A DNA stretch of 64,000 bases. Origin: Pseudarthrobacter sp. NBSH8 (GTDB lineage: Bacteria; Actinomycetota; Actinomycetes; Actinomycetales; Micrococcaceae). Under the pieces are notes generated by a model. The model saw nothing but the letters and a program-made list of their open reading frames with translations, ran no database searches and was not told the DNA's origin. The stretch is taken from NCBI RefSeq assembly GCF_014217545.1, contig NZ_CP043178.1:1736001-1800000 (forward strand). The letters run 5' to 3'. The translations under genes were made by a program, and so were the position numbers. Positions 39,056 through 64,000 of the stretch are shown here, in pieces (the first letter of the stretch is position 1; every line of letters begins with the position of its first letter).

Positions 39056-39390
39056 AGTGATCTCCACACTCCTCTGTGCATTGGGAACGCGAGATATCCC
39101 GTTCCTTGAACGCGCCGGCCGCGGGCTGTGCACCCGCAGGTTCACCGACTTCGCGTGACGTCCATCTCATGCTAGTCACAGGATAAGGACGAAACAAGGA
39201 CATATATTGCACTCATTATGTCGCCTAGGGTACATAAAAGAACCCTTGGGCGGCACTAGGGTTTTGCCTGATGTGAGCACTGTCACCTTGCGGCAGACTG
39301 GGTGGGACACATTCATTCCGCCGAGGGATTCAGATGTGGCCGCACAGTCGCTGCCCGCCTCCCGCACCCTCTCCAAAGAAGGAGCACACC
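39056..39390. promoter_or_regulatory. catA-benA divergent promoter region
   Basis: 335 bases hold the promoters of both aromatic operons. AGGGT and ACCCT arms (around CCTAGGGTACATAAAAGAAC, 39224-39243) and a related CACTAGGG nearby form imperfect inverted repeats that could bind the LuxR- or LysR-type regulator of the cluster. No gene is present. Confidence 0.5.
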
Positions 39391-40773
39391 ATGACCGAGC
39401 ATCTGACGCGGGTCCGTGAGGTCCTGGCTGACGCCGTCGTTGACGATCGAGAGAACGGCGTTATCCGGGCGAAGCGTGAAATCTTCACCGACCAGGAGAT
39501 CTTTGAATTGGAGATGAAGCACATCTTCGAGGGCAACTGGGTTTACCTTGCCCATGAGTCCCAGATCCCCAACGTGGGGGACTATTTCACCACGTATATT
39601 GGCCGGACCCCCGTCGTCCTTACCCGGGACAGGGACGAGAAGATCAACTGCATTGTCAACGCCTGCTCCCACCGTGGCGCCATGCTGTGCAGGCGCAAGA
39701 CCGATAACAGGACCACCTTCACATGTCCTTTCCACGGCTGGACATTCAAGAACTCCGGAGAGCTCCTTAAGGTCAAGGATTCACGCAATGCCGGCTACCC
39801 GGAATCCTTCAACAAGGAGGGCTCGCACGACCTCACCAAGGTGGCCCGCTTCGACTCCTACCGTGGCTTCCTGTTCGGCTCATTGAATGCTGACGTCCTC
39901 CCGCTGGAAGAGCATTTGGGAGATGCCACCAAGGTCATCGATTCGATTGTGGACCAGTCCCCGGAGGGGCTCGAGGTCCTGCGCGGGGCTTCCACCTACA
40001 CCTATGACGGCAACTGGAAGGTCCAGGCGGAGAACGGCGCCGACGGCTACCACGTCACCGCCGTGCACTGGAACTACGCCGCGACAACCGCCCGCCGCAC
40101 CGCCGGTGACTCCGCTAACAAGACCAAGGCCATGGACGCCGGCAAATGGGGCAAGGTCAAAGGCGGCTTCTATTCCTACGATCACGGGCACCTGCTGCTG
40201 TGGCAGGAGTGGACCAACCCCGAGGACCGTCCCCTGTGGGACCGCCGCGACGAGCTCGTCGAAAAGTACGGCGAGGAAATGGCTAACTTCATGATCAACA
40301 TCTCACGCAACCTCTGCCTGTACCCGAACGTGTACATCATGGACCAGTTCTCGTCGCAGATCCGTCACTTCCGCCCCATTTCAGCGGACCAGACCGAGGT
40401 GACGATCTACTGCATCGCGCCGAAGGGTGAATCGCAGGAAAACCGCTCAAAGCGCATCCGCCAGTATGAGGACTTCTTCAACGCAACCGGCATGGCCACG
40501 CCGGACGACCTCGAGGAGTTCCGATCCTGCAACAAGACCTACTGGGCCACCTCCGCCCCGTGGAACGACATGACGCGCGGCTCCACCCATGAGATTGCGG
40601 GTCCTGACGAGCAGGCTACCGCGCTGGGCATGTCGCGGGTGATCGCCTCCGGTGTGCGCACCGAAGACGAGGGTCTCTACCCGATCCAGCACGGGTACTG
40701 GAAGGAAGTAATGGATAAGGCCCTCGCCGAGGCGGAATCCGTTGCCCAGGAATCCGTCCCGGTCACGGCGTAA
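39391..40773 (+). CDS. benA: benzoate 1,2-dioxygenase, alpha subunit
   Basis: 460 aa. The Rieske cluster is bound by CSHRGAML and CPFHGW; the mononuclear iron site is in [13 protein letters not shown]. Start ATG at 39391 has AAGGAG 7 bases upstream. First gene of benABCD. With BenB it forms the oxygenase that turns benzoate into the cis-1,2-dihydrodiol. Length and motifs match BenA/XylX rather than toluate- or anthranilate-specific forms, though close substrates cannot be excluded. Confidence 0.93.
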
Positions 40774-41362: not shown

Positions 41363-41490
41363 GCCACGCCGGCACGCGTACGGCGCGGCCGTAGCGGCGT
41401 CGCACGGCCCGCCGCCAGATCTGCTCGCAAGAGATATCCGCACTAACTTTCCGGGGGTTGCGAGGATGCGACCCCCAACCAGGAGGAATC

Positions 41491-43065
41491 ATGGGCCATC
41501 AGGTAGCCCTCAGTTTCGAAGATGGCGTCACCAAAGTCATCAAAGTCGGCGACTATGAGACCGTCATGGACGCGGCGTACAAGGCGCGCATCAACATCCC
41601 TTCCGACTGTCGGGATGGCGCCTGCGGCACGTGTAAGGCGTTTTGCGACTCCGGCTCGTTCGACCCGGGCGACTATATCGACGACGCCATGACCGAAGAG
41701 GAGCTTGAGAAGGGCTACCTGCTCACCTGCCAGGCCGTTCCGGAATCGGACCTCGCCATCCAGATCCCGGCGACCTCCGAATCCGCGAAAACCTCAGCTG
41801 CCACTTTTGCTTCCACGCTGAAGGAACTCGACAAGCACTCGGAGTCCACCATCTCCTTCGCCCTGGAGGTGCAGAACCGGGAAGCACTGGCTTTCCTGCC
41901 CGGCCAGTACGTCAACATCAAGGTCCCGGGCACCGACGCGGAGCGCTCGTACTCGTTCAGCAACGGCCCCGAAGGGATGGATGCATCCTTCATGGTGCGC
42001 ATCACGCCGCAGGGCGCGATGTCCGAGTACCTGCGTGACCGCGCTGCAGTAGGGGACGCCATCGAGTTCACAGGCCCGTACGGCTCCTTCTTCCTTCGCG
42101 ACCCCAAGCGCCCCCTGCTCCTGCTGGCAGGCGGCACCGGCTTGGCCCCGCTCCTGTCCATTCTGGAGAAGTTGTCCGGGAACCCCCCGGCCACGCCGGT
42201 CCACCTGATTTATGGCGTCTCCCGTGAAGCCGACATCGTAGGACTGGACTGGCTGCGCACCTACGCAGCGAAGTTGCCGACCTTCACCTGGGATTACATT
42301 GCCTCCGATTCGGATACCTCCGCCCCGCACACGGGATACGTCACACAGATCATCCAGCCGTCCCACCTCAACGATGGCGACGTCGATATCTACCTCTGCG
42401 GGCCGCCGCCCATGGTCAATGCCGTCTCCAAGTGGCTGGACACCGAGGGCATCCAGCCAGCCAACTTCTACTTTGAACGTTTCGCTCCCAAGGAAACCAC
42501 CGGCGGGGACGCCGAGACGGGCGCGCCCGCCACAGCGGACAAGGTGGAGACCGCAGGCGACACCATCAGCCGGGTGGAAGCCATTTCATCCATGGAAACC
42601 GGCCGGCTCGAGTTCCGTACCGAAGACAGCTTCGCGCACCTGGACGCCCGCATGGGCCTTGAACTTGCCGTGACCGAGCTGATGTTGGACCGCCTGAGCA
42701 CAGAGCAGTTGCACCAGTTCCGTCGCATTGCCGAAGCGACCACCCGGGCGGTGGACGCCGGAAGGGTTCTCGACCCGGAAGAGTATGTCAGGACCAATGA
42801 AGAGTTCCACGAGTACCTGTTCATGATCTCCGACAACCCCATGCTGCTGGAGTCCTACCGTCGGCTCGACGTCCACGCCCAAATGGCAGCCACTTTTGCA
42901 GAGGGCACGCATATCTTTGACCGGGTCGCCCAGGACCACCTTGATGTCGTGGACGCGTTTGAACGCGGCGACAAAGAGCGGGCCCGGGAAGTGATCATGG
43001 CTCACACCCGCGATGCAAAAGGAACCATGGCCGAAGCGATCAACGCCACGGTCAAGGGCTTCTGA
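41491..43065 (+). CDS. benC: benzoate dioxygenase reductase with C-terminal FCD-like domain
   Basis: About 524 aa. Residues 1-95 are a plant-type ferredoxin (CRDGACGTCKAFC, then LLTCQ), followed by an FAD domain (RSYSFSNGP) and an NAD domain (LLLLAGGTGLAPLLS) ending CGPPPMV near residue 320. A further 170 residues resemble the all-helical FCD ligand domain of GntR regulators (NEEFHEYLFMIS, and a late MAHTRDAKG). Classical BenC has about 340 residues. The start ATG has AGGAGG 4 bases upstream. It supplies electrons from NADH to BenAB; the extra domain is of unknown role. Confidence 0.9.
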   Translation: MGHQVALSFEDGVTKVIKVGDYETVMDAAYKARINIPSDCRDGACGTCKAFCDSGSFDPGDYIDDAMTEEELEKGYLLTCQAVPESDLAIQIPATSESAKTSAATFASTLKELDKHSESTISFALEVQNREALAFLPGQYVNIKVPGTDAERSYSFSNGPEGMDASFMVRITPQGAMSEYLRDRAAVGDAIEFTGPYGSFFLRDPKRPLLLLAGGTGLAPLLSILEKLSGNPPATPVHLIYGVSREADIVGLDWLRTYAAKLPTFTWDYIASDSDTSAPHTGYVTQIIQPSHLNDGDVDIYLCGPPPMVNAVSKWLDTEGIQPANFYFERFAPKETTGGDAETGAPATADKVETAGDTISRVEAISSMETGRLEFRTEDSFAHLDARMGLELAVTELMLDRLSTEQLHQFRRIAEATTRAVDAGRVLDPEEYVRTNEEFHEYLFMISDNPMLLESYRRLDVHAQMAATFAEGTHIFDRVAQDHLDVVDAFERGDKERAREVIMAHTRDAKGTMAEAINATVKGF

Positions 43066-49890: not shown

Positions 49891-50765
49891 CGCGAGGGTG
49901 TTCGAGGAAGCGGGATGGCGACCCGGAGTGCTCAACGTGGTGGTGGGCGCCGGATCCGAGATCGGTGATGACTTCGTCACCCATCCTGTCCCTGGCTTGA
50001 TTTCGTTCACGGGGTCGACGCCGATCGGGCAGAACGTTGGCAAACTTGCCGCCGGTGGAAAGCACCTCAAGCACGTTGCCTTGGAACTCGGCGGTAACGC
50101 GACCCTGGTGGTCCTTGCGGATGCCAATCTGGATGCTGCAGTGGAGGCTGCCGTCATGGGCAAGTTCCTGCATCAGGGACAGATCTGCATGGCGGTCAAC
50201 CGCATCATTGTTGAGGCCCCGCTCTACGATGAGTTTGTGGAGCGTTTCACCGCAGCGGCCTCCGGAGTAGCCTTCGGCGACCCTGCTTCTGAGCAGACCC
50301 TGGTGGGTCCGGTGGTTAACGACAGCCAGCTTGAAGGGCTTAAAACGAAAATCGCAACAGCCAAGGCTGAGGGCGCCCGCACCGTCCTTGACGGCGAAAT
50401 CACAGGCGGGTCGTCCCGCCGCATGTACTCGCCGACGTCAGTCCCGACATGGAGATTGCCCGCGAGGAGATCTTTGGACCGTTGGTGGGAATCCTCAAGG
50501 CCAACGCCGACGCCCACGCCCTGGAATTGGCCAACGCCACCGAATTCGGGCTTTCCAGTTCCGTGTTCACACAGGACCTCGATCTCGGCGTGCAGTTCGG
50601 ACTTGGCATCAAGGCCGGCATGACGCATATCAATGAGATGCCTGTCCATGACGAATCACACGTGCCTTTCGGCGGCGAGGCAACTCCGGGCTGGGCCGGT
50701 TCAACGGCGACTGGGCTACTGCCGAATTCACCACCGACCACACGGTTGGAGTCAAGCGACTCTAA
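49886..50765 (+). pseudogene. aromatic aldehyde dehydrogenase remnant, frameshifted twice
   Basis: Begins mid-gene ([17 protein letters not shown]); the first 180 or so residues are absent. The catalytic glutamate ([11 protein letters not shown]) and cysteine ([11 protein letters not shown]) remain. One base is missing at about 50408, where the frame shifts before [13 protein letters not shown], and another at about 50680 (GAGGCAACT), after which the normal tail ([19 protein letters not shown]) ends at 50763-50765. It resembles benzaldehyde/vanillin dehydrogenases and may once have fed the benzoate pathway. Confidence 0.8.
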
Positions 50766-50930
50766 CGCCGGGTGCCCCGCCGATGCACGGTTAGCGTGCA
50801 TCGGCAGGGCACTTCCGTTTCCATCGTGCCGCTTACAGCCATCACGGACGGTATGGATCGGTACGATTTCGATATGAATCATTGGCCCGGAGTGTCCGCC
50901 GGCATCCGGGCCAATGGATAAGGTGAATTT

Positions 50931-51694: not shown

Positions 51695-52945
51695 TTACCT
51701 GGACGCAGCAAGCCGTGCATCCAGCAAGCCGGCCGCGACTGCTGGAGCAAGCCCTGGTGCCAGTGGAAGTCGCGGGACCACCAGGCAGTGCCAGAGGTGA
51801 TAGATGTCCGCCTTGCCTGACCACACGGTCGAGGTGACATTGCCATTCTCGTCCAGTTCCTGCTTCCAGGACCCGTGCTCGTAGTCGATGAACCAATCGC
51901 GGGCGTGGTCCCAGATTCGCTCGTACCAGTCCGCGTACTTCTGGTCACCGGTGGCGATGTAGAGGGCTGCCGCGCCTCCAATTGCCTCGGCGGGAACCCA
52001 GCGGATGCGGGTGGTGACAACCGGCTTGCCGTCCCAGTCGACGGTGTATACAAATCCCGGATGACCGTCCGGTTGCCAGGCGTCGCGAATTGCGGCGTCG
52101 AACAAGCCCCGTGCATCGTCCAGCAGCCAGGGCGGAACCTCCATGCCGCGGGCTTCGAGCCCGGCACGGACATGCAGGAGCAGGCGTGCCCACTCAACCC
52201 AGTGGCCGGGGGTTCCGCCGTACGCGCGGAACTGGCTGGCCCGGTCATCGGTGTTGTACTCCGGCATGGGGTTCCACTCCGGGTCGAAGTGCTCGAAAAC
52301 CCGGTAGTTGTTGTTGCGCGCAAATTCGTGGATGAGCACCTCGGCGATATGGAGGGCCCGTTCGAGCCAGCGGTTCTCCCCGGTCACATCGGCGACGATG
52401 AGGTACGCCTCGACGGAGTGCATGCTCGCGTTCCCACCACGGTAGGCTTCGGTTTCCGTGAACTCCCGGTTCCAGGAGTCGAAGCACATGCCGGCGTCGT
52501 GGTCCCAGAACCTCGTGTCAGCGATTCGCAGCGCCTCGTCGAGCAATTCCCTGGCGCCCGGGCGCTTGGCGGCGACGGCGCTGGCAGCAGCGAGCAGCAC
52601 GAATGAGTGCTGGTAGCCGGACTTGGTGTCGTTTACCGGTCCGTTCCCGTCTATCTCGGCATACCAACCGCCGAACTCATCATCGTGGAAGACTCCGTTG
52701 AGCGCAGTGATGCCGTGGTCGACGAGCGCCGCAGCACCAGGTCGTCCCATGAGGGCAGCGACGGCGAAACTATGGATCATGCGCGCAGTAATCCAGAGGT
52801 GGGTCGGCTTGTCGGTGAACACGGCGCCGTTGTTGTCGAGCCAGCCGAATCCTGTGGGCACCTTTGAACCCGCGGCGAAATTGATCAGCCGATCGGTTTC
52901 GGCCTCGAGCCATCGTGCGTGAGCGGCACTGTTCAGCCACGTCAT
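51695..52945 (-). CDS. AGE-family aldose-ketose isomerase, probable sulfoquinovose isomerase
   Basis: About 416 aa, an (alpha/alpha)6 barrel of the N-acylglucosamine 2-epimerase family. Conserved stretches are THLWITARMIHSFAVAALM, NASMHSVEAYL near residue 190 and the closing KADIYHLWHCLVVPRLPLAP, with the histidines expected to act as acid and base. The ATG at 52945 follows GAGAGGAAA. It is the last gene of an operon with YihT-like aldolase and PfkB kinase, so sulfoquinovose to sulfofructose is the most likely reaction; a mannose isomerase is the alternative on sequence alone. Confidence 0.82.
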   Translation of the reverse strand: MTWLNSAAHARWLEAETDRLINFAAGSKVPTGFGWLDNNGAVFTDKPTHLWITARMIHSFAVAALMGRPGAAALVDHGITALNGVFHDDEFGGWYAEIDGNGPVNDTKSGYQHSFVLLAAASAVAAKRPGARELLDEALRIADTRFWDHDAGMCFDSWNREFTETEAYRGGNASMHSVEAYLIVADVTGENRWLERALHIAEVLIHEFARNNNYRVFEHFDPEWNPMPEYNTDDRASQFRAYGGTPGHWVEWARLLLHVRAGLEARGMEVPPWLLDDARGLFDAAIRDAWQPDGHPGFVYTVDWDGKPVVTTRIRWVPAEAIGGAAALYIATGDQKYADWYERIWDHARDWFIDYEHGSWKQELDENGNVTSTVWSGKADIYHLWHCLVVPRLPLAPGLAPAVAAGLLDARLAASR

Positions 52946-52991
52946 GTTATTTCCTCTCCATGGTGCGGGTGCAATTGAGAATGATGCCTGA

Positions 52992-53177
52992 TTAGCGGGT
53001 GCCGAAGTCGGAATCTGTGTAGGCGCCTGCGCCACGGGCAGCGCCCCGGCAGTTGCATTGGTCTCCTACTTCGAGCTGGATGGTCACCGGAGCGCCCGCA
53101 TCAATCGTCAGGGAGACGGTCTCGCCCTTTATGGTGGACACGCGCAGGAGGTTTTCTTGCGGAGAAACGACTGTCAT
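52992..53177 (-). CDS. 61-aa protein of unknown function in the sulfoquinovose operon
   Basis: Not recognised. It begins with a hydrophilic stretch, has a beta-like middle (GAPVTIQLEVGDQ) and then the only cysteines as CNC, followed by a Gly/Arg-rich tail. A GAAAGG site lies about 8 bases before the ATG. It sits in a 256-base space between the TauE exporter and the isomerase, on the same strand and with 46-60 base gaps, so it is probably transcribed with them. It could be a small metal- or ligand-binding protein or a mutarotase-like helper, but nothing in the sequence proves this. Confidence 0.6.
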   Translation of the reverse strand: MTVVSPQENLLRVSTIKGETVSLTIDAGAPVTIQLEVGDQCNCRGAARGAGAYTDSDFGTR

Positions 53178-53237
53178 AGCCGGCCTTTCGTTGGTGGTTC
53201 GGTGGATGGGATGGGGGGATGGGTGCCGCAGCGGCTG

Positions 53238-53981
53238 CTAGACGACGACATCGAGCACGCCGCGGATGATGGTGGCAGCCGCTCCGAGGTACGCCAGGAC
53301 GATCAGCAGGACCTGGGCGGTCCGGGCCGGGACGTACCGGGCAGCGACGTCGCCCAGCACCAGGCCTGCGAGGCAGGCCACGGCGACGGCCACCCACATT
53401 CCCCATGGCAGCGCGGGGAACGTCTCCGGGGCAGTGAGGGCTTTGGAGATCAGGGAGAACACGCCGATGGTGAAAAAGTACGGTTGCATGGTGGCAGCGA
53501 ACGATTTGTGCTGCCACCGGGTGGCGATGGAGTACATGCTGACGGCAGGCCCGCCCACCCCGGCCGCCGTATTCATAAACCCGCTCAGGCCGCCGGCCGT
53601 GAAAAGGTAGCGGCGGCGTGGAGTGAGCGTGGCGGACTTGAGGCCAAGTAAAATGGTGAGCCCAACGGCGAGGAGCACCCCGATGGAGATCTCCAGCACC
53701 GCCGGCGGGATGAGCCGGATCAGGAAGGCCGCCGGGATGATCCCCAGCAGCGCCGACGCCGCCAACGCCACGTACCGCTTCCAGTCGATGTCCCGCGCCA
53801 CCCGGAAGATGATGGCTCCCGCCGTCACGGCGCCGCAGAGGTTCACCAGCACCACCCCTTCCACCGGGCCAAGGAGCAGGACCAGGAAGGGAGCAGCCAC
53901 CAGCGCGAAGCCCATGCCGGTGATGCGCTGCATCCCGGCTCCCATGACGACGGCGCCCAGCACCAATCCGGTGGTCAGCAT
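53238..53981 (-). CDS. TauE/SafE family sulfonate exporter
   Basis: 247 aa with about eight membrane segments in two related halves, the TauE/SafE layout (MLTTGLVLGAVVMGAGMQRI, then FLVLLLGPVEGVVLVN). Its ATG directly follows the stop of the aldehyde dehydrogenase gene. In sulfoglycolytic operons such proteins export the C3 sulfonate end product, here most likely sulfolactate. Confidence 0.85.
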   Translation of the reverse strand: MLTTGLVLGAVVMGAGMQRITGMGFALVAAPFLVLLLGPVEGVVLVNLCGAVTAGAIIFRVARDIDWKRYVALAASALLGIIPAAFLIRLIPPAVLEISIGVLLAVGLTILLGLKSATLTPRRRYLFTAGGLSGFMNTAAGVGGPAVSMYSIATRWQHKSFAATMQPYFFTIGVFSLISKALTAPETFPALPWGMWVAVAVACLAGLVLGDVAARYVPARTAQVLLIVLAYLGAAATIIRGVLDVVV

Positions 53982-55421
53982 TTACGGCTTCCAGGCCACG
54001 TACTGGACCTCCTCGAACTCCTCGAGCCCGAGGCTTGATCCTTCGCGGCCCAGGCCGGACTGCTTGGCACCGCCCATGGGAGCGAAGGCCACGGAGGGGA
54101 GGGGATCGTTGACCCCTACGATGCCGGCTTCCAGGCGTTCGGGGATGTCCCAGGCGCGCTTGGGATCGCGGCTCCAGAGGTACGCGGCGAGGCCCATCTC
54201 GGTGGCGTTCGCCTTGCGGATGGCGTCCCCATCCGAGGTGAAGGTCACGACGCCGGCCGCCGGGCCGAACACTTCTTCGCTCACCAGGGGTGCGTCGTCG
54301 GGGACGTCCGTGAGCAGTGTGGGGGCCATGAACGCGCCGCGCGCCGGAACCTCGGTCCGCTGCGTGACGCGGCGGGCGCCGCGCGCGAGGGCGTCGTCCA
54401 CCAGGGCCTGGACGGCGGCTACCCGATCGGCCTCGATCATGGGGCCGAGGTCCGGAACGTCCGAACCGTCGTCGGGAACGCCGTGGCCGATGCTCATGGC
54501 GTCGAACCGTGCCGCCAGTTTCTGTGAAAATTCCTCGGCGATGCTGTCCTGGACCAGGAACCGGTTGGCGGCCACGCAGGACTGGCCGGTGTTGCGGAGC
54601 CGGCCCAGGACCGCGCCGTCGACGGCTGCGTCCAGGTCCGCGTCCTCAAAGACGATGAACGGTGCGTTGCCGCCCAGTTCAAGCAGCGGACGGACCACGC
54701 GTTCTGCGGCGGAGGCCATGATCTGCTGGCCCACGCCGGTGGATCCGGTGAAGCTGACGGCCCGCACGGCGGGGTGCTGGAGCAGGGCGGCGGTGATTTC
54801 GCGCGAGGGTCCGTGAACCAGGTTGACGACGCCGGCGGGGAACCCGGCGTCGTGCAGGACCTCGAACAGGCCGGCGGCGGCGAGTGGCGCCTTTTCGGAC
54901 ACCCGGCCCACCACGGTGCAGCCTGCGGCCAGCATTGCGGCGAGCTTGCGGGCCTGGATGGATACGGGAAAGTTCCAAGGGGTGAGGCTCAGTGCAACGC
55001 CGATGGGTTTGCGGAGGCTGAGGTGGCGCCGGCCGTGGAGTTCGGGCGGGCTGACGGTGCCGGTGGAGCGGCGGGCTTCCTCGGCGAACCAGCGGAAGTA
55101 CTCCACCGAGAAGTCCACCTCACCCTGGGCTTCCGGGAGCCGTTTTCCGGCTTCCAGGGCCAGGGTGTGGGCCAGTTCGTCGCGGCGTTCGGCCAGCAGG
55201 CCGGCGGCGTTCAGGAGCAGGTCTGCCCGGTTGCGCGCGGTGGTCCGGGACCAGGAACCGAAGGCGTCGGCCGCGGCGTCTGCGGCCGCAGTGGCATCGT
55301 CGGCGGTGCCCCAGGCCACTTCGCCGACCGTGCTGCCGTTTCCGGGGTCGGTCACGTCCTTGGAACTGCCGGCTGAGAGCCAGGTTCCGTTCACCAGGTG
55401 TCGGGCTGATTTCAGGTTCAC
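53982..55421 (-). CDS. NAD(P)-dependent aldehyde dehydrogenase, probable sulfolactaldehyde dehydrogenase
   Basis: 479 aa, succinate-semialdehyde dehydrogenase-like class. Catalytic glutamate in LELGGNAPF near residue 255 and cysteine in GQSCVAANRF near residue 288. GTG start at 55421 with GAAAGG upstream. It lies between the ABC importer and the exporter of the sulfoquinovose operon; oxidation of 3-sulfolactaldehyde to sulfolactate would fit the following TauE exporter. Substrate is inferred. Confidence 0.82.
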   Translation of the reverse strand: MNLKSARHLVNGTWLSAGSSKDVTDPGNGSTVGEVAWGTADDATAAADAAADAFGSWSRTTARNRADLLLNAAGLLAERRDELAHTLALEAGKRLPEAQGEVDFSVEYFRWFAEEARRSTGTVSPPELHGRRHLSLRKPIGVALSLTPWNFPVSIQARKLAAMLAAGCTVVGRVSEKAPLAAAGLFEVLHDAGFPAGVVNLVHGPSREITAALLQHPAVRAVSFTGSTGVGQQIMASAAERVVRPLLELGGNAPFIVFEDADLDAAVDGAVLGRLRNTGQSCVAANRFLVQDSIAEEFSQKLAARFDAMSIGHGVPDDGSDVPDLGPMIEADRVAAVQALVDDALARGARRVTQRTEVPARGAFMAPTLLTDVPDDAPLVSEEVFGPAAGVVTFTSDGDAIRKANATEMGLAAYLWSRDPKRAWDIPERLEAGIVGVNDPLPSVAFAPMGGAKQSGLGREGSSLGLEEFEEVQYVAWKP

Positions 55422-55523
55422 GTGTGTTGCCTTTCGTTGGGCTGGTGGAGGTCCGGAACCGCCGGACGGGCGAAGCGGTCCTCCGTCCAGGAGGGCGTCG
55501 CCGGAACAGTCATGGCTGCTGCC

Positions 55524-56339
55524 TCATCCCTTGCTTGCTCCGGCGGTGATCCCGGCAACGAAGTAGCGCTGCAGGAAGACGTAGGCCACCACCACGGGCA
55601 GGGATGCCAGGATGACTCCGGCGAACAGCAGCGGGTAGTTGGTCTGGAACTCGCCCTGGAAGCTGAGCAGTGCCAGCGGCAGGGTCCGGTTGCCCGGGGA
55701 CTGGATGAACAGCAGCGGGTAGAGCAGTTCGTTCCAGTGGATCACGAACAGGAAGATGGCCGCGGCAGCAACGGACGGGGCGGACAGGGGGAGCGCGATG
55801 GACACGTACGTCCGCCACGGGCCGGTGCCGTCAATGGAGGATGCCTCGTACAGCTCCTTGGGCAGGGTCCGCATGAACCCACCGAGGATAAAGACGGCGA
55901 TGGGCAGGGTGGACACGACATTGGCCAGCACCAGGCCTGCCAGGCTGTCCAGCAGACCCAGCCGGCCGAACAGGACATACAAAGGCACCATGTTGGCCTG
56001 CGCCGGGATGGCCATGCCCAGGACCAGGAAGCCGAAGATGGCCCAGCCCATGAACCCCTTGAGCCGGGAGATGGCGTATCCGGCGAGGCTGGCCAGGAAC
56101 AGGGTGAGCGGCACGGAGATGGCGGTGACAATCACGCTGTTCGTGAAGGACGAGCCCAGGTCCTGGCCTCCGATCACCTCGGCGTAGTTGGCCGGGGAGA
56201 GGGACTGCGGCAGGCTGAACGGTCCGGCGAAGAGTTCCTGCGTGGACTTGAAGCTGCCGAACCCAACCACGGTCAGCGGAACGATGATGATGACCGCGTA
56301 GATTCCAAGAATTGCGCGGCGGCTTAGTGAAGCGAGCAT
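55524..56339 (-). CDS. carbohydrate ABC transporter permease (MalG-like)
   Basis: 271 aa, six membrane segments, EAA loop YEASSIDGTGPWRTYVSIALP. Starts 4 bases after the partner permease. No ATPase gene is in the operon, again implying a shared MsiK-type ATPase. Likely imports sulfoquinovose or its glycosides. Confidence 0.87.
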   Translation of the reverse strand: MLASLSRRAILGIYAVIIIVPLTVVGFGSFKSTQELFAGPFSLPQSLSPANYAEVIGGQDLGSSFTNSVIVTAISVPLTLFLASLAGYAISRLKGFMGWAIFGFLVLGMAIPAQANMVPLYVLFGRLGLLDSLAGLVLANVVSTLPIAVFILGGFMRTLPKELYEASSIDGTGPWRTYVSIALPLSAPSVAAAAIFLFVIHWNELLYPLLFIQSPGNRTLPLALLSFQGEFQTNYPLLFAGVILASLPVVVAYVFLQRYFVAGITAGASKG

Positions 56340-56343
56340 GCTG

Positions 56344-57306
56344 TCATTCCCCCTTCGGGGTCAGCCGGAGCAACCGGCGCTGGAGCCAGGTGACCAGGGC
56401 GATCATCGCCATGAAGATGATCGACTGGGCGGCGGCGTAGCCGAACTCCGAGTTGGCAAAGGTGCTGTAGATGCGGGTGGAGAGGATGTCCAGGGACTGC
56501 TTGGGCGGGTTCCCCGCGATGCCCAGGATCAGGTCGAAGGCCTTGAACGACTGGACGGTGGTGTAGGCCACCACGATGGACGTTGCCGGGGCCACAAACG
56601 GCCAGGTGATGGATTTGAACTGCTGCCATTTGCCGGCGCCGTCCATTTCCGCCGCCTCGTAAAGTTCCCGGGGGATGGCCTGCAGGCCGGCGATATAGAC
56701 CACCATCATCTGCCCGGCGTGGAACCAGACCTGCGTCACGGCCACCCAGGACAGGGCCTGGGCATTGTTGCCGAGGTAGGAACCCTGCAGGGCTTCGAGC
56801 CCCACGCCGCCCAGGACCGCGTTGGCGAGGCCGAAGTTGGGGTCGTAAATGAACTTCCAGATGAAGGCCACGGAGACGGAGGACAGGATGGTGGGGAAGA
56901 AGAACAGGGCCCGGAGCAGGATGCTGCCGCGCGAGTTCTTCGTCAGGAGCAGGGCCAGCACCAGCGAAAAAGCGGTCTGCGCGATCACCACCAAAAGCAC
57001 AAACTTCAGGTTGTTGGTCAGCGCGTTGGTGAAGAGCGAGTCCTTGGTGAAGGCACGGACGAAGTTGTCCAGCCCCACGTAGTTGAACGCCGCCGAGAAG
57101 CCGTTCCAATCCGTGATGGCGTACTGAAACGCCTGCAGGGTGGGCATCACCAGGAAGAACGCAATGATGGCGACGGCGGGAAGCGGGAAGAGGTACAGTG
57201 CTGGATTCACCCGCGTGGGGGAGCGGCGGCGCCCCTTCGCGGCGCCGGTTTCAGTCCCGCCGTCCGGGGCCTTCCGTTCGTCAGCCATTTTGGTGTGGGT
57301 GCTCAT
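56344..57306 (-). CDS. carbohydrate ABC transporter permease (MalF-like)
   Basis: 320 aa. A hydrophilic, Lys/Arg-rich N-terminus of 30 residues precedes six membrane segments; EAA loop YEAAEMDGAGKWQQFKSITWP. ATG at 57306 overlaps the binding-protein stop by 4 bases, which supports this start over the second methionine at residue 7. Confidence 0.87.
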   Translation of the reverse strand: MSTHTKMADERKAPDGGTETGAAKGRRRSPTRVNPALYLFPLPAVAIIAFFLVMPTLQAFQYAITDWNGFSAAFNYVGLDNFVRAFTKDSLFTNALTNNLKFVLLVVIAQTAFSLVLALLLTKNSRGSILLRALFFFPTILSSVSVAFIWKFIYDPNFGLANAVLGGVGLEALQGSYLGNNAQALSWVAVTQVWFHAGQMMVVYIAGLQAIPRELYEAAEMDGAGKWQQFKSITWPFVAPATSIVVAYTTVQSFKAFDLILGIAGNPPKQSLDILSTRIYSTFANSEFGYAAAQSIIFMAMIALVTWLQRRLLRLTPKGE

Positions 57307-58589
57307 AGCCGTTCGTCAACGATCTTCTGGGCGGCTTCGGCGGCCTGCTCGGGGCTGGTGCCCGAGATGACAGCCGTGGCGCTGGCCTCCACCGCGTTGC
57401 GGACATCGAGGTTCTGGAACTGGAAGCGGGCGGCCAGCGCGGTCTTTTTGTCCAGCCAGGGGCTGAGGCGCTTTAGGTCCGGGTTGGTGTACTCCACGTT
57501 GCTCACGGCCACGTGCTGGGCTGTTTTGTTGGCGTAGTAGCCGGCGTTCTCGGGCTCGGAGAGGAAGTCGATCCACGCCGCGGAGGCGGCCTGGTTCTTG
57601 CTTGCTGAGTTGACGCCCAGGATGAACGTCGCGTTGTAGGCGCCCTCGAACTTGCCGCTGCCGTCGGAGGTGTTGGGGAACACCAGCTCGATGGGGAACG
57701 TCGCGCCCAGGCCGCGGACGGCGGCGATGTGGTACGAACCGGTGGCCAGCATGGCGGCCTTCCCCTGGGAGAACAGGTTCTGCGCCGGCTCCACGGCGGT
57801 GCCTGTGGCGTTGGGCTGCAAGTACGGGACCAGTTCCTTGTACTGGCCCAGCATTCTCAGGAACCAGTCGTCGGTGCACTTGAGCTTGCCCTGCTCAATC
57901 TGGGCGCACATGTCGTCCACGGGGGCGTTGTTGGCGATCATGCAGTTGAACAGCTGGCCGCCATTTCCGACGTCGCCGCCCGGCCAGGAGATGGGAATGA
58001 CGCCGGAGGCCGCGAGCTTCTCGCACATGGCCAGGAAGCCGTCCCAGTCCTTCGGCGCGATCTCCGCGCCGGCCTTATCGAACAGGTCGGCGTTGGCCAT
58101 GGGCATGGGGAAGACCACCTGGTATGGCAGGCCCAGTTGGCTGTCACCGGACTGCCCGGCGGTCAGCAGGCCCGGCTGGTAGCTGGCGGCGGCCTTGCTG
58201 CCTTTGAGTTCGGCGTAGATCCCGGCCTCGGTGAAGTTCTTGAACTGGGCGCCACGGAAGGTAGCGAACGCGTCGCCGATGGCTGCACCGCGGACCTTCT
58301 GAAGGCCCTGGGCGTTGTAGTCGTTGGAGGTGGAGATGTCCTGGACCACCTCCACGCCGTCGTGCAGCGCCGCGAAGCGCTTGATCAGTTCGTCGAATAC
58401 CACCTTGTCCTCGCCGCGCCAGTGGGCGAAGGAGACCTTTCCCGTGACGGCGCCTGTGGAGGGGGCCGCCGGTCCAGTGGCGCCACCGGGGGCCGTGCTG
58501 CCGCCCGGCCCGGCGCACGCTGCCGCGGTTGCTCCGAAGCCCAGGGCTCCGAGAATCGCGATGGCCTGCCTGCGTGAAATCTGACTCAC
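57303..58589 (-). CDS. sugar ABC transporter substrate-binding lipoprotein (Tat-type signal)
   Basis: 428 aa. The signal peptide contains a twin arginine (SRRQAIAILGALGFG) and a lipobox AAAC near residue 24, so export may be by Tat. The domain opens GKVSFAHWRGEDKVVFDEL, typical of CUT1 binding proteins. GTG start with GAGGAG 6 bases upstream. Ligand is inferred as sulfoquinovose or sulfoquinovosyl glycerol from the operon. Confidence 0.85.
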   Translation of the reverse strand: MSQISRRQAIAILGALGFGATAAACAGPGGSTAPGGATGPAAPSTGAVTGKVSFAHWRGEDKVVFDELIKRFAALHDGVEVVQDISTSNDYNAQGLQKVRGAAIGDAFATFRGAQFKNFTEAGIYAELKGSKAAASYQPGLLTAGQSGDSQLGLPYQVVFPMPMANADLFDKAGAEIAPKDWDGFLAMCEKLAASGVIPISWPGGDVGNGGQLFNCMIANNAPVDDMCAQIEQGKLKCTDDWFLRMLGQYKELVPYLQPNATGTAVEPAQNLFSQGKAAMLATGSYHIAAVRGLGATFPIELVFPNTSDGSGKFEGAYNATFILGVNSASKNQAASAAWIDFLSEPENAGYYANKTAQHVAVSNVEYTNPDLKRLSPWLDKKTALAARFQFQNLDVRNAVEASATAVISGTSPEQAAEAAQKIVDERL

Positions 58590-58678
58590 AATATTCTCCT
58601 CGTTGAGTGTGTTGCTGTGCCTTGCTTGTTGCCTACGGAATGGCTGTCACCAGGAAGCGCTTGGCGCGTCGGGACTGC

Positions 58679-59563
58679 TCATGCACTGGTCTTTTGCGCC
58701 GAGACAACGTCGTCCACCACGGCGCAGAGGCGCTGCAGCCGCCGGACGGCGTCCATGGAGAGGGATTCGACGACGTCGGGGGCACCGATGCAGGACGCCC
58801 AGACGGCGCGTCCGGAGAGGAAGCCGCTGGCGCCTTCGAGGCAGGCCCACCGGACCGCGTCGGGGAAAACATCTTCGGGGACGCCGGAGGAGAGGACCAC
58901 CCACGGGCCGTCGATGGCCCGGGTCAGGTCGGCGCAGGCTGCGCGCACCTCGGCTTCGGGGGCTTGGCCGTGGAAGGGGACCTCGGCCTTGTAGAGGTCC
59001 GCTCCGAGGCTGCCGAGTTCCTGCGCGGCGGCGAGGATGCCTGCGTTCCAGTCAAAGTCATCGCCGGAGAGCGGTTTGCGCGAAACAGGCTCGATAATGC
59101 TGATGAGCCCGGCGGATCGGCAGATCTCCACGAATTCGCGCACCATGGCCACGCGGCCGTCGGCGGGCTCGTCCGGGCGGTATAGCACCAGCAGCTTGAG
59201 GGCCTTGACGCCCAGCGCGGCGTATTTGTGCGGGTCCACCAGCCGGTCGATGGTGACCTCGCCCACCAGCTCGCCGTGCGCGGATTCAAAGTGGTCGGCG
59301 GAGGCGATGAGCCCGCAGCCGGGGTCCACCACGTCGTCCTCGATGGCCTGGTCCAGCGCGAACTGCCGGTCGATCAGGACGCCGGAGGCGTACGGGGTGA
59401 GGATTCTGGCGGCCTGGAGCTTGAAGTCCTGGAGGTCCTGGTCCGTGACGGGGGCATCCTGGTGTTCGGCGATCATGTTGCGCATCGCCTCGCGCTGGTC
59501 GACGGCGAGCATCGCGAAGGCGCCTGACGGGCGCTGCAGGGGTGAAAGATCGGTGGAGGTCAT
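58679..59563 (-). CDS. 6-deoxy-6-sulfofructose-1-phosphate aldolase (class I, YihT-like)
   Basis: 294 aa, close in length and motif order to E. coli YihT: GAFAMLAVDQREAMR at residue 14, VKALKLLVLYRPDE near 130, LISIIEPVSRKP near 165, the Schiff-base lysine in GADLYKAEVP near 200, and GASGFLSGRAVWAS near 255. It should split sulfofructose-1-phosphate into dihydroxyacetone phosphate and 3-sulfolactaldehyde. Tagatose-bisphosphate aldolases of the LacD class are related, but the match to YihT is more specific. It follows the kinase gene by 12 bases. Confidence 0.9.
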   Translation of the reverse strand: MTSTDLSPLQRPSGAFAMLAVDQREAMRNMIAEHQDAPVTDQDLQDFKLQAARILTPYASGVLIDRQFALDQAIEDDVVDPGCGLIASADHFESAHGELVGEVTIDRLVDPHKYAALGVKALKLLVLYRPDEPADGRVAMVREFVEICRSAGLISIIEPVSRKPLSGDDFDWNAGILAAAQELGSLGADLYKAEVPFHGQAPEAEVRAACADLTRAIDGPWVVLSSGVPEDVFPDAVRWACLEGASGFLSGRAVWASCIGAPDVVESLSMDAVRRLQRLCAVVDDVVSAQKTSA

Positions 59564-59575
59564 GGGTTGCTTCTT

Positions 59576-60493
59576 TCAGCTAGGGGTGAGGTTGGAGGCA
59601 AGGGCGGGGGTGATGTTCTGGTGTGGGATGCCGGAGCGGCCGTCCAGTCGCCCGCAGGAGGCGGCTGCGGTGCGGCCGGCGAAGGCTGCCGCGTCCACCA
59701 GCGGCAGGCCGGCGGCAACGGCGGCGAGCAGGGCGCCGTGGTAAACGTCGCCCGCGCCCAGGGTGGACACGATGGTGGCGGGCGTCGCGGGCACGTGCAC
59801 GGTGTCGGTGTGGCCGGTTTTGACCCAGGCCCCTTCGGACCCGGCGGTCGCGACGACGGCGGAGGCGCCGTCGTCGATGGCTTTCTGGAGCAGCGCCGCA
59901 ACACTGTGGTGGTCGCCGTAGTCGGCGCGGAGCCGCTCGATGGTGGGGACATACAGGGCGACGCCGCGCGGACTGAAGGACGGGATGGGGTTGCCGGCGT
60001 CCACACTGAGGTTCAGGTTTCCGTGGTTGAGCCCGGGGAGGTTGGCGACGGCGCTCCAGCCCAGGTGGTCCACGTGCACCCACGCCGAGGAGTCCAGGAG
60101 TTCGCGGAAGCGCCCCTCGGCAGGGAAGCTGACCGGCGGCACCGGGCGGGTGACGATGGCGCGGCTTTCGGTGGCCTTGCTGACCACGATGACGCTGGCT
60201 CCGGTTTTGACGCCGGGATCGCGGACCACGGCTGAGGTGTCCACGCCTTCAGCCTGCAGACCGCTGATGATACGGTCGCCTTCCTCGTCGGTGCCGATGA
60301 CTCCGGCGAAAGCGGCCTGCGCGCCTGCCCTGGCGGCAGCAACGGCGGCGGTGGCAGCCGGCCCGCCTCCCGCCGTCGTAAAGTCTGTGGCGACAGTGCG
60401 GCTGTCTGCAGCGGGATAATCCTGAACCAGGGCTATGGAGTCCAGGGTGGCGGAGCCTATAAAGAGTAGGGTTCCGGTTGATGGTTGGGACAC
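59576..60493 (-). CDS. PfkB-family sugar kinase, probable sulfofructose kinase (YihV-like)
   Basis: About 305 aa. PfkB motifs: GGGPAATAAVAAARAGAQ near residue 38 and the ATP/anion-hole motif GAGDVYHGALLAAV near 250. The tail DGRSGIPHQ resembles YihV. The GTG at 60493 was chosen because GAGGTGGA lies just upstream and the family opening (GTLLFIGSATLDSIALV) follows; further upstream the frame runs through the divergent promoter. First gene of the minus-strand operon. Expected reaction: sulfofructose to sulfofructose-1-phosphate. Confidence 0.85.
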   Translation of the reverse strand: MSQPSTGTLLFIGSATLDSIALVQDYPAADSRTVATDFTTAGGGPAATAAVAAARAGAQAAFAGVIGTDEEGDRIISGLQAEGVDTSAVVRDPGVKTGASVIVVSKATESRAIVTRPVPPVSFPAEGRFRELLDSSAWVHVDHLGWSAVANLPGLNHGNLNLSVDAGNPIPSFSPRGVALYVPTIERLRADYGDHHSVAALLQKAIDDGASAVVATAGSEGAWVKTGHTDTVHVPATPATIVSTLGAGDVYHGALLAAVAAGLPLVDAAAFAGRTAAASCGRLDGRSGIPHQNITPALASNLTPS

Positions 60494-60542
60494 GTTCCAC
60501 CTCGTTGTAGTCGGCTTGTACTGAAGAAATATACACACGCTA

Positions 60543-61771
<1,229 letters not shown>

Positions 61772-61779
61772 GTAGATTT

Positions 61780-61797
61780 GTGTTGGAATTGCAACAC
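61780..61797. promoter_or_regulatory. candidate DeoR operator before deoR
   Basis: GTGTTGGAATTGCAACAC: 6-base arms GTGTTG/CAACAC around a nearly symmetric centre, 48 bases before the deoR start. Shares TGTTGGAAT and CAACA with the site at 60543-60558, so autoregulation by the DeoR protein is likely. Confidence 0.65.
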
Positions 61798-61844
61798 CCC
61801 GGCAGGCCAAATTCGCCCGGTTAAGGGAAGCAGGAGAAGGGTTT

Positions 61845-62627
61845 ATGAGCAGCTCACCGAAAGAGGCGCCGTTGACGCCCCGCCAGCGCACCATCCTGGA
61901 CCAGCTCGAGCAGCGGGGCTTCATCTCCACGATGGACCTCGCCGAAACGTTCGCGGTCTCGGACATGACGGTGCGCCGGGACACCCGAGTGCTGTCCCAA
62001 AAGGGGCTGGCGCGGGTGGTTCACGGCGGCGTCAGCGCCGTCAACGCCAGCGGGCAGAACGCGGACTTCGCGGCCCGGGCCCGGGAGGATGCTGACGCCA
62101 AGCAGCGGGTGGCCCGGGCCTGCGTGTCCATGATCGGCGAGCGGGACGCCATCATCTTGGACGCCGGGACCACCACGTACCAGATTGCTCTGGAGCTGCC
62201 GCCGACGTTCGCGGGCACCATCATCACCCACTCCGCGCCCGCCATCCAGCGCTGCCTGCAACTGTCGGCGGCGCGGACCATCTGCCTCGGCGGTGAGCTG
62301 CTCCTGGACAGCCAGGCGTTCAATGGCCCCATGACGGTGAGTGCCGCCGCCGGCCTCCGGGCCAAAACGGCGTTTATAGGGGTCAGCGGGCTCCACGACG
62401 AGGCGTTCTACATTGAGCGGGACGTGGAGCGCGCCACCAAGAACGCCCTTATGGACGCAGCCGAACAGGTGGTGGTGGTGGCAACGCACCAGAAAATGCT
62501 GCGGTACGCGCTGGCGCGGCTCGCCGCATTCGACGCCGTGGACGTGCTGGTGACGGACGCGCCGCCGCCCCGGGAGATCGAGGACGCACTGCGTGCCGCC
62601 AACGTCAAGGTCGTGGTGGCCGCGTGA
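61845..62627 (+). CDS. DeoR-family transcriptional regulator of the sulfoquinovose genes
   Basis: 260 aa. N-terminal HTH (FISTMDLAETFAVSDMTVRR, residues 26-45) then the DeoR sensor domain with the phosphosugar-binding stretch DAIILDAGTTTYQIALEL. AGGAGAAGG lies just before the ATG. In E. coli the sulfoquinovose genes are also controlled by a DeoR protein (YihW). Its stop overlaps the next gene by 4 bases. The TGTTG-N6-CAACA sites at 60543 and 61780 are its likely targets. Confidence 0.88.
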   Translation: MSSSPKEAPLTPRQRTILDQLEQRGFISTMDLAETFAVSDMTVRRDTRVLSQKGLARVVHGGVSAVNASGQNADFAARAREDADAKQRVARACVSMIGERDAIILDAGTTTYQIALELPPTFAGTIITHSAPAIQRCLQLSAARTICLGGELLLDSQAFNGPMTVSAAAGLRAKTAFIGVSGLHDEAFYIERDVERATKNALMDAAEQVVVVATHQKMLRYALARLAAFDAVDVLVTDAPPPREIEDALRAANVKVVVAA

Positions 62628-63544
62628 GCGCGCCGCTCCGGGTGGCCCTACCCGACCGGAAGATGCTGGACGCGCTCGAGCCGATTGCCGGCGTCGAGTT
62701 TGTCCTGTGGGACCTCAGCGGCCCGCCGCCGTCGGGCCGTTTCGACCTGCTGGTGCCTCCCTACATGGGCAAGCCTGCGGCGCTGGCCGCGCTGGACTGC
62801 GTTGAGGTGGGGCTGGTGCAGAGCCAGTCGATCGGGTACGACGGCGTAGCTGCAGTTCTGCCCGGCGGCTGCCTTTTCGCCAACGCGGCCGGGGTCCATG
62901 AGACGTCGACGGCGGAACTCGCGTTGGGCATGATGATCGCCAGCCAGCGCGGGATGCCAGACTTTGCCCGGAACCAGGTGTCCGGGACGTGGGACAACAG
63001 CCATCGGCCCAGCCTCGCGGACCGGCGCGTGCTGCTGGTGGGCTACGGGGGAGTGGGGAAGGCCATCGAGGCCAGGCTCCTGCCGTTCGAAACCCACGTG
63101 ACGCGGATGGCCAGCCGGGAACGCGACGACCAGCGGGGCCGGATCCACGGGATCGACGCACTCTACGAACAGTTGCCGCTGCACGACATCGTGGTGATCA
63201 GCGTCCCCCTGAGTGAGCGCACACACCAGCTGGTGGACCGGAAGTTCCTGGCCGCGATGCCGGACGGAGCGCTGCTGGTGAATGTGGCCCGAGGCCCCGT
63301 GGCGAACACGGATGCCCTGCGGGCCGAGACGTCGTCCGGGCGGCTGCGGGCCGCACTGGACGTCACCGACCCCGAGCCGTTGCCGGCCAGCCACCCGCTG
63401 TGGACTACTCCCGGCGTGCTCATCACCCCGCACGTGGGCGGGGCAAGCTCGGCGATGTTCCCGCGGATGGTCCGGCTGGTCAGGCAGCAGATCTCGCTGC
63501 TGCTGGCGGGCGGGGAACCGGTGAACGTGGTGCTGGGCCGCTAG
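62624..63544 (+). CDS. D-isomer specific 2-hydroxyacid dehydrogenase family protein
   Basis: 306 aa. NAD motif VLLVGYGGVGKAIEARLLPF near residue 140, catalytic arginine in LVNVARGPVANTDAL near 225 and the acid/base histidine in ITPHVGGASSAMF near 270. It starts with GTG overlapping the deoR stop by 4 bases. Whether it acts on sulfolactate or another 2-hydroxyacid, or is simply a housekeeping neighbour, cannot be decided. The stop overlaps the convergent mutase stop. Confidence 0.85.
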   Translation: MSAPLRVALPDRKMLDALEPIAGVEFVLWDLSGPPPSGRFDLLVPPYMGKPAALAALDCVEVGLVQSQSIGYDGVAAVLPGGCLFANAAGVHETSTAELALGMMIASQRGMPDFARNQVSGTWDNSHRPSLADRRVLLVGYGGVGKAIEARLLPFETHVTRMASRERDDQRGRIHGIDALYEQLPLHDIVVISVPLSERTHQLVDRKFLAAMPDGALLVNVARGPVANTDALRAETSSGRLRAALDVTDPEPLPASHPLWTTPGVLITPHVGGASSAMFPRMVRLVRQQISLLLAGGEPVNVVLGR

Positions 63545-64000
63545 GCCCGGATCTGCTGCAGGACGGCGTCGCGCACCTGGGCCATGGTGGCGGCGTCGGT
63601 GGCTTCGACGTTAAGCCGCAGCAGTTCCTCCGTGTTGGAGGCCCTCAGGTTGAACCACCAGTCCCCGCCCTTGCTGCTGACGCTGAGCCCGTCGAGTTCG
63701 TCGATCACGGCACCGTTCGCGTAGCTGGCCCGCACGTCCGCCACCTTGCCGTCGACGCCGTCCACGGATGAGTTGATTTCGCCGCTGGCTGCGTACGGGT
63801 CGAACTCGCGAACCAGTTCGGACAGGGGCAGCTCCTGCTCGCCGAGGGCGGCCAGGACGTGCATTGCGGCAAGCATGCCCGTGTCCGCGTTGTAGAAGTC
63901 GCGGAAGTAGTAGTGGGCCGAGTGTTCGCCGCCGAACACGGCGCCCTCCTCGGCCATCCGGGCCTTGATAAAGGAATGCCCCACCCGGGTCCGGACCGGC
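63541..64000 (-). CDS. manB: phosphomannomutase/phosphoglucomutase, C-terminal part (gene continues outside)
   Basis: The last 150 or so codons of an alpha-D-phosphohexomutase. The sugar-binding loop GEHSAHYYF and the C-terminal phosphate-binding loop NLRASNTEELLRLNVEA are clear. The frame is open to the window edge. It interconverts mannose-6- and mannose-1-phosphate for GDP-mannose synthesis. Probably a core gene marking the right edge of the catabolic region. Confidence 0.9.
   Translation of the reverse strand, partial: PVRTRVGHSFIKARMAEEGAVFGGEHSAHYYFRDFYNADTGMLAAMHVLAALGEQELPLSELVREFDPYAASGEINSSVDGVDGKVADVRASYANGAVIDELDGLSVSSKGGDWWFNLRASNTEELLRLNVEATDAATMAQVRDAVLQQIRA

Follow-up and report, generated by a model that had tools for sequence, protein, structure and literature searches.

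A sulfoquinovose locus of a Pseudarthrobacter/Arthrobacter-type actinobacterium and a second phosphohexomutase predicted to share its operator

Introduction

Which genes are controlled together with a bacterial pathway for sulfoquinovose (SQ), a plant sulfosugar for which a figure of 10 billion tons a year is given (PMC10755693), and does that control reach beyond the pathway itself? The question is raised by ten genes at positions 51695-62627 of the stretch of DNA analysed here, a window of 64,000 nucleotides (G000:C1:1736001-1800000) within a one-contig genome of 4.06 Mb. Our best explanation as a whole, in which we have high confidence, is that the source is a soil actinobacterium of the Pseudarthrobacter/Arthrobacter type carrying a sulfo-EMP (Embden-Meyerhof-Parnas) locus for SQ, and that a palindrome, the predicted target of the DeoR-family regulator of the locus, stands at two places inside the locus and at a third before a gene, here called PGM2, for a second phosphomannomutase/phosphoglucomutase. 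This explanation is built on direct observations of gene content, homology, conserved contact residues, palindrome distribution and the linkage of PGM2; the substrates, the repression and the binding by DeoR are what we infer from them.

Loci of this kind have precedents. The cluster of Arthrobacter AK01/AK04 was described with sulfolactate as its end product and, in the main text of that report, without a candidate sulfoquinovosidase (PMC8873060); SqgA was then identified in PMC10755693, where this glycosidase of glycoside hydrolase family 188 (GH188) is published for AK01, U41 and others. The core of the window's locus is a further, already known member of this published Arthrobacter sulfo-EMP cluster. 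The first-pass annotation of the window, which had read it as a complete sulfo-EMP type locus with a candidate GH188 glycosidase, is supported, mostly as known matter, and what is added to the known locus is a predicted regulon with three operators, a specialised mutase among its members.

The Locus and Its Relatives

All ten genes that had been placed at these positions are open frames in the order and on the strands first described, i.e., eight on the minus strand followed by sqgA and deoR on the plus strand, and the domains named for them agree as well (GlcNAc_2-epim, TauE, Aldedh, two BPD_transp_1, SBP_bac, DeoC/LacD, PfkB, GFO_IDH_MocA and DeoR). The genes and predicted operators, together with the two genes that follow deoR, are these (ABC, ATP-binding cassette):

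51695..53035, minus strand: sulfoquinovose-sulfofructose isomerase (YihS type); PF07221; best PDB matches YihS / sulfoquinovose isomerase, 580-590 bits
53238..53981, minus strand: TauE/TSUP permease, probable sulfolactate exporter; PF01925, 81 bits
53982..55421, minus strand: sulfolactaldehyde dehydrogenase (GabD type); PF00171; R158, R276 and C282 kept
55524..56339, minus strand: ABC permease 1; PF00528
56344..57306, minus strand: ABC permease 2; PF00528
57303..58589, minus strand: ABC solute-binding protein, probable binder of SQ or SQ-glycerol, a substrate suggested by context; PF01547
58679..59563, minus strand: sulfofructose-1-phosphate aldolase, class I (YihT type); 7ag1/1to3/7ag7, 272-278 bits
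59576..60493 (probable GTG start at about 60493), minus strand: sulfofructose kinase (YihV type); 7ag6, 112 bits
60543..60558, no strand assigned: predicted DeoR operator 1, TGTTGGAATAACAACA, in the kinase-sqgA gap; palindrome match
60629..61771, plus strand: sqgA, GH188 NAD+-dependent sulfoquinovosidase; 8qc2/8qc3, 762-763 bits; contact residues kept
61781..61796, no strand assigned: predicted DeoR operator 2, TGTTGGAATTGCAACA, in the sqgA-deoR gap; palindrome match
61845..62627, plus strand: DeoR-family regulator, probable repressor of the locus; PF08220 and PF00455; co-occurrence with the palindrome
62624..63544, plus strand: D-isomer 2-hydroxyacid dehydrogenase; its reading frame shares 4 nt with deoR
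63541..64000, minus strand: PGM2 (3' end), the second phosphomannomutase/phosphoglucomutase; complete at G000:C1:1799541-1800929, minus strand (L152:2542-3930)
G000:C1:1800983-1800998, outside the window: predicted operator 3, before PGM2; palindrome match

The program's frame for the kinase, 59576-60607, probably extends too far in the 5' direction, and the GTG is the likelier start.

Relatives of the locus were collected on the basis of GTDB, and among the 80 kept of 538 the ten closest come from Arthrobacter and Pseudarthrobacter (sqgA identity 80-92%), the remaining 70 being mostly proteobacterial (47-60%). The ten were compared in detail (L009-L018, with L011 and L014 apparently the same records as genomes G014 and G060 of the genus sample described below), and nine of the ten genes occur together in nine of these loci, at identities of 65-96%; L011 is rearranged or cut and has only five of them, with the kinase reduced to a 38-residue piece. 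The isomerase is present in six (L009, L010, L013-L015 and L018), and in the other four it may lie beyond the stretch covered. In the genus sample, 61 genomes with the window's own included, sqgA was found in 20, and exactly those 20 carry a close aldolase (at least 86% identity, two weak matches at 31-32% being left out of the count); the cluster is therefore not a chance arrangement.

SqgA and the Release of Sulfoquinovose

The Gfo/Idh/MocA protein had been put forward as the candidate for releasing SQ, and its comparison with GH188 enzymes bears this out. Against the PDB it matched 8qc2 with 763.1 bits and 8qc3 with 762.3 bits (E-values near 4e-229 and 7e-229, the alignments spanning at least residues 1-372), followed by 8zn9 (‘oxidoreductase, putative’) at 357.6 bits and then by an inositol dehydrogenase at 83 bits, i.e., it groups with the solved GH188 enzymes and not outside them. 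The SQ contacts of the GH188 enzyme are described in PMC10755693, and eight of the eight contact residues checked are kept in the window's protein under the same numbers (K107, Y136, R166, L170, K172, E189, H193 and H321), with L170 distinct from the Tyr variants of PMC11465081. No consequential difference was seen from ArSqgA and FlSqgA (PDB 8qc2, 8qc3, 8qc5, 8qc6 and 8qc8). Assignment of the protein at 60629-61771 as the GH188 NAD+-dependent sulfoquinovosidase SqgA is, at the level of sequence, supported. An ordinary sugar or inositol dehydrogenase would belong to the same superfamily, and the best NCBIfam match is indeed the inositol dehydrogenase model TIGR04380, though under its cut-off (123.9 vs 355 bits); the GH188 structure matches and the eight kept contact residues contradict that alternative, to which we give hardly any credence. 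A residue printed for ArSqgA in PMC10755693 as Glu163 corresponds to E164 in the window's protein, which has V at 163; the same segment of 8qc2/8qc3 aligns in register with it, and the printed number may therefore be off by one.

It had also been claimed that no GH31 sulfoquinovosidase is present, and in a search of the genome with PF01055 none was recognised. The sole match is partial (34.9 bits against a Pfam cut-off of 23.5, covering less than half of the model), and the protein concerned scores better as Melibiase (45.5 vs 32.1 bits); it was rejected as a YihQ-type enzyme.

The Remaining Steps of the Pathway

Enzymes of the YihS, YihV and YihT types are present together at the locus, types that are judged by overall homology only, since the residues contacting the sulfonate in the three enzymes were not found in the literature search. 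The aldolase is of class I (DeoC/LacD). Its matches to the YihT/sulfofructosephosphate aldolase structures reach 272-278 bits, and none of those that follow, tagatose-bisphosphate aldolases for the most part, exceeds 54 bits; the protein thus groups with YihT, as its motifs had first suggested, and not with the LacD-type tagatose enzymes; it is also unlike the class II SqiA aldolase of sulfo-EMP2 (PMC12890257). For the kinase, the best PDB match is the sulfofructose kinase 7ag6, with the runner-up at 83 bits. Two arginines have been proposed as sulfonate binders in RlGabD, and a second cysteine is described as missing in the Arthrobacter enzymes (PMC10599462); in the window's sulfolactaldehyde (SLA) dehydrogenase both arginines (R158 and R276) and the catalytic C282 are kept, and the second cysteine is absent.

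From these types, sulfoquinovosyl glycerol or free SQ would be brought in by the ABC importer, and SqgA, oxidising C3 transiently with NAD+, would cleave the glycoside. The isomerase would turn SQ into sulfofructose and the kinase would yield sulfofructose 1-phosphate, which the aldolase would split into dihydroxyacetone phosphate and SLA; the dehydrogenase would then oxidise SLA to sulfolactate, to be exported probably by TauE, whose part as sulfolactate exporter is a proposal of PMC8873060. All of these substrates are predicted ones. The description of the locus as complete calls for two reservations: no ABC ATPase is among the ten genes, and a mutase gene under the same predicted operator, lying partly outside the window, had been missed. 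A single gene with a MalK-type OB domain is found elsewhere in the genome.

The traits of the Arthrobacter variant are all present, i.e., an SLA dehydrogenase replacing an SLA reductase, ABC import, TauE and no GH31; no SLA reductase is among the ten genes, a genome-wide search for one not having been made. The likeness to AK01/AK04 comprises the isomerase, kinase, class I aldolase, SLA dehydrogenase and ABC importer, the GH188 SqgA of AK01 and the TauE of AK04, and extends to the cluster having no reported gene for a GH31 enzyme or a mutarotase. With the yih system of E. coli the locus shares the YihS-, YihT- and YihV-type steps and a local regulator, which there is CsqR/YihW (PMC10991401). 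In contrast to yih, and following the comparison in PMC8873060, it has GH188 and not GH31, an SLA dehydrogenase and not a reductase, and an ABC importer, and its expected end product is sulfolactate rather than dihydroxypropanesulfonate (DHPS).

One Palindrome at Three Places

Alignment of the divergent kinase-sqgA region across loci revealed a conserved palindrome, TGTTGNAATNNCAACA, which at one mismatch or fewer occurs at three places in the entire genome: at 60543 and 61781 of the window and at genome position 1800983, the last lying 983 bases beyond the window's end. The reversed pattern, used as a control, has one match in the same genome. Within the window, two or fewer mismatches give four strand-matches (two places, each on both strands) against 0.49 expected. 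Across the genus sample, exact palindromes occur in 18 of the 20 genomes with sqgA and in none of the 41 without it, the two remaining sqgA genomes (G026 and G035) having sites with one mismatch instead; the reversed pattern matched in a single genome of the 61, G045. At one mismatch or fewer the palindrome lies upstream of sqgA in 15 of 18 loci scored and in the sqgA-deoR gap in 17. The scoring covered 18 of 20 loci, L100 and L101 being without a detected start; by eye, both of these have a one-mismatch site upstream of sqgA, and exact sites are present in their genomes, G011 and G017.

The DeoR protein itself gave one weak PDB match, to a deoxyribose operon repressor (27.2 bits). It is the likely binder of the palindrome because the palindrome co-occurs with the locus and has an autoregulatory position before deoR. 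CsqR/YihW of E. coli is a member of the DeoR family too. DeoR would most likely act, probably as a repressor, through one palindrome at three places, i.e., the gap between the leftward operon and sqgA, the position before deoR and the position before PGM2. In a literature search for any operator or repressor already reported for sulfoglycolysis, none of the matches listed mentions sulfoglycolysis. As a difference from the AK01/AK04 descriptions, the word ‘DeoR’ does not occur in the main texts of PMC8873060 or PMC10755693, nor ‘operator’ in that of PMC8873060, the only one searched for it; main texts were the scope of these searches.

A Second Mutase beside the Locus

The third palindrome directs attention to PGM2, a phosphomannomutase/phosphoglucomutase of 462 residues that scores 676.5 bits with NF007088, above the equivalog cut-off of 618, and 296 bits with the structure 5kl0. 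From the start codon of PGM2 the near end of operator 3 is 53 bases away and the far end 69. In 60 of the 61 genomes there is a mutase with 69-72% identity to it (partial in G030 and G053), which we regard as the housekeeping enzyme, the exception being G060, where the search showed PGM2 only; PGM2 and the housekeeping enzyme of its own genome (G000:C1:666997-668382) are 70% identical. PGM2 as a second copy (at least 75% identity) occurs in nine of the 61 genomes, all of which have sqgA, at distances of 2.1-8.8 kb from it (8.8 kb in G023, G039 and G060). Under random placement the probability of such an overlap is about 1e-5, a value that is only indicative, the genomes being related. The palindrome precedes PGM2 in all nine, with no mismatch in two, one in six and two in one, starting 50-69 bases upstream, while among 22 housekeeping mutases compared, of about 60, none has it within 300 bases at three or fewer mismatches. 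Three further loci (L013, L015 and L017) agree with this pattern. PGM2 is not confined to one side of the locus: some lineages have it by deoR, others (L013-L015) adjacent to tauE.

Of 120 listed homologues, themselves the best of 6,998, 119 were combined with 40 locus copies (the latter including duplicates) into a tree of 159 mutases. After midpoint rooting, the linked copies fall into a single clade (65 rows, support 1.0). The tree omits P0073, which is too long (596 aa) and has the ordinary SNTEP loop, and the L012 mutase, which is truncated where its locus ends. The stretch SNTEP is presumably the phosphate-binding loop and family signature of this mutase superfamily, and it is here that the clade departs: all 65 rows have SNTEE or SNTEA and all 94 others SNTEP (55 and 94 distinct sequences). 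PGM2, with RASNTEE, thus lacks the canonical SNTEP, although the R, S, N, T and E that precede the substitution are unchanged. Proline 435 is the only position that separates the clade from the other mutases; P430A was considered as a diagnostic and rejected, alanine being there in 62 of the 94 others too. Compared with the actinobacterial enzymes of NF007088, whose cut-off it passes, PGM2 accordingly differs in the loop proline and in the upstream palindrome. A member of the clade (P0018) also occurs in Arthrobacter sp. U41, from which the crystallised ArSqgA comes. An exception to the PGM2 signature is found in Arthrobacter sp. B6, where the mutase adjoining the SQ locus (L012:4-1128, plus strand) has the ordinary loop, RPSNTEP.

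What the Second Mutase May Be For

Several points weigh against the explanation as a whole. The match of the kinase to YihV is moderate (112 bits), and the PDB matches of the solute-binding protein are distant binders of other sugars or solutes, the best at 43.7 bits. One of 100 shuffled window sequences reached four pattern matches at two mismatches, three of the 18 scored loci have merely a three-mismatch palindrome upstream of sqgA, and one has none in the sqgA-deoR gap. PGM2 is absent from 11 of the 20 sqgA genomes, and is therefore not required for the pathway, and in the window's genome the 2-hydroxyacid dehydrogenase gene sits between it and deoR. These last two facts, together with the ordinary-loop mutase adjoining the locus of Arthrobacter sp. 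B6, would suit a PGM2 that is a mere chromosomal neighbour, its nearby palindrome serving another function. Such an accident is improbable in our estimate: PGM2 lies on different sides of the locus, yet is linked and preceded by the palindrome in nine of nine genomes, and no exact palindrome exists in the 41 genomes that lack sqgA.

If PGM2 does belong to the regulon, its purpose may be plain. Cells growing on SQ must build hexose phosphates from dihydroxyacetone phosphate, and a second mutase could merely raise the supply of glucose 1-phosphate and mannose 1-phosphate during gluconeogenic growth on the C3 half of SQ, its chemistry unaltered, a reading in keeping with its score above the phosphomannomutase/phosphoglucomutase equivalog cut-off. 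We give this supply boost a little less than an even chance; against it speak the housekeeping-type mutase that 60 of 61 genomes (two partial) already have and the loss of the loop proline from all members of the linked clade seen. The alternative would be a resistant-target duplication in a catabolic pathway, in which a phosphohexomutase that tolerates sulfosugars, or acts on them, is induced along with sulfoglycolysis. YihS yields sulforhamnose as a side product (PMC9594981), and SQ-grown cells may therefore contain mimics of glucose 6-phosphate and of mannose 6-phosphate, the pair of substrates on which the housekeeping mutase acts. SQ and sulforhamnose, by this resemblance, would occupy or dephosphorylate the housekeeping mutase, and the duplicate under the same repressor, with its Pro to Glu/Ala loop, would discriminate phosphate from sulfonate. 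A regulated duplicate with a changed loop fits such a tolerant isozyme, which we put forward as a tentative possibility, below the plain supply boost. A search for literature joining SQ with phosphoglucomutase or phosphomannomutase found, judging by titles, nothing about SQ degradation; ‘mutase’ is not in the main texts of PMC8873060 or PMC10755693, and the words phosphomannomutase and phosphoglucomutase are not in PMC12890257.

Neighbouring Genes and the Fate of Sulfolactate

The overlap of the 2-hydroxyacid dehydrogenase with deoR by 4 nt, and a strong Xsc elsewhere in the genome (1037.6 bits, above cut-off), raise the thought that the strain mineralises sulfolactate, the dehydrogenase producing sulfopyruvate, which would be decarboxylated and then desulfonated by Xsc. 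Mineralisation in the same cell is not supported, and we consider it very unlikely. The Xsc gene stands among apparent taurine genes (aminotransferase, alanine dehydrogenase, phosphotransacetylase-like and TauE-like, by a reading of open frames with no family search), the beta subunit of sulfopyruvate decarboxylase (TIGR03846) gave no match above cut-off, the alpha subunit, sulfolactate sulfo-lyase and sulfolactate dehydrogenases not having been searched, and the relatives AK01/AK04 excrete sulfolactate. Moreover, a close full-length relative of the 2-hydroxyacid dehydrogenase (at least 78% identity) is found in 32 of the 61 genomes, 17 of them without sqgA and 15 with it, a split, partial copy in G030 not being counted. 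It adjoins deoR in 14 of these 15 (14 of the 20 sqgA genomes) and is elsewhere in G016; in G020 it is in pieces. The gene is probably co-transcribed with deoR and is not specific to the locus, and it was rejected as a pathway enzyme and judged to belong to the genus more widely, with the locus situated next to it. With its Xsc region (L151, G000:C1:3705000-3724900) the strain probably also handles C2 sulfonates.

Beyond the window's end, galM and ROK genes (L152:5157-7323) brought up the idea of an SQ mutarotase, which was dropped; a role in xylose use is likelier because the neighbours read as xylose isomerase and xylulokinase. An alpha/beta hydrolase, possibly a lipase, at L152:4344-5108 is present in one of 45 loci compared, most with only about 1.5 kb of flank. 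Near the other end of the locus, an aldehyde dehydrogenase remnant (49898-50877, plus strand), a 241-aa frame covering only the middle of PF00171 (175-353 of 461) with an apparent continuing piece in another frame, resembles a decayed gene. A separate region of the window for the use of oligosaccharides has a GH36 alpha-galactosidase-type protein (24655-26847, minus strand) and a GH32 enzyme (32731-34278, plus strand) with a LacI regulator (31619-32734). At 41458-43065 (plus strand), near a Rieske oxygenase (39334-40773), one frame joins Fer2, FAD_binding_6 and NAD_binding_1 to an FCD regulator domain, an unusual fusion or a frameshift artefact.

Implications

The palindrome offers a marker for this type of locus in Arthrobacter-like bacteria. 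If a dedicated mutase is indeed part of the regulon, sulfoglycolysis may burden normal sugar-phosphate metabolism in a way that forces the bacteria to compensate.

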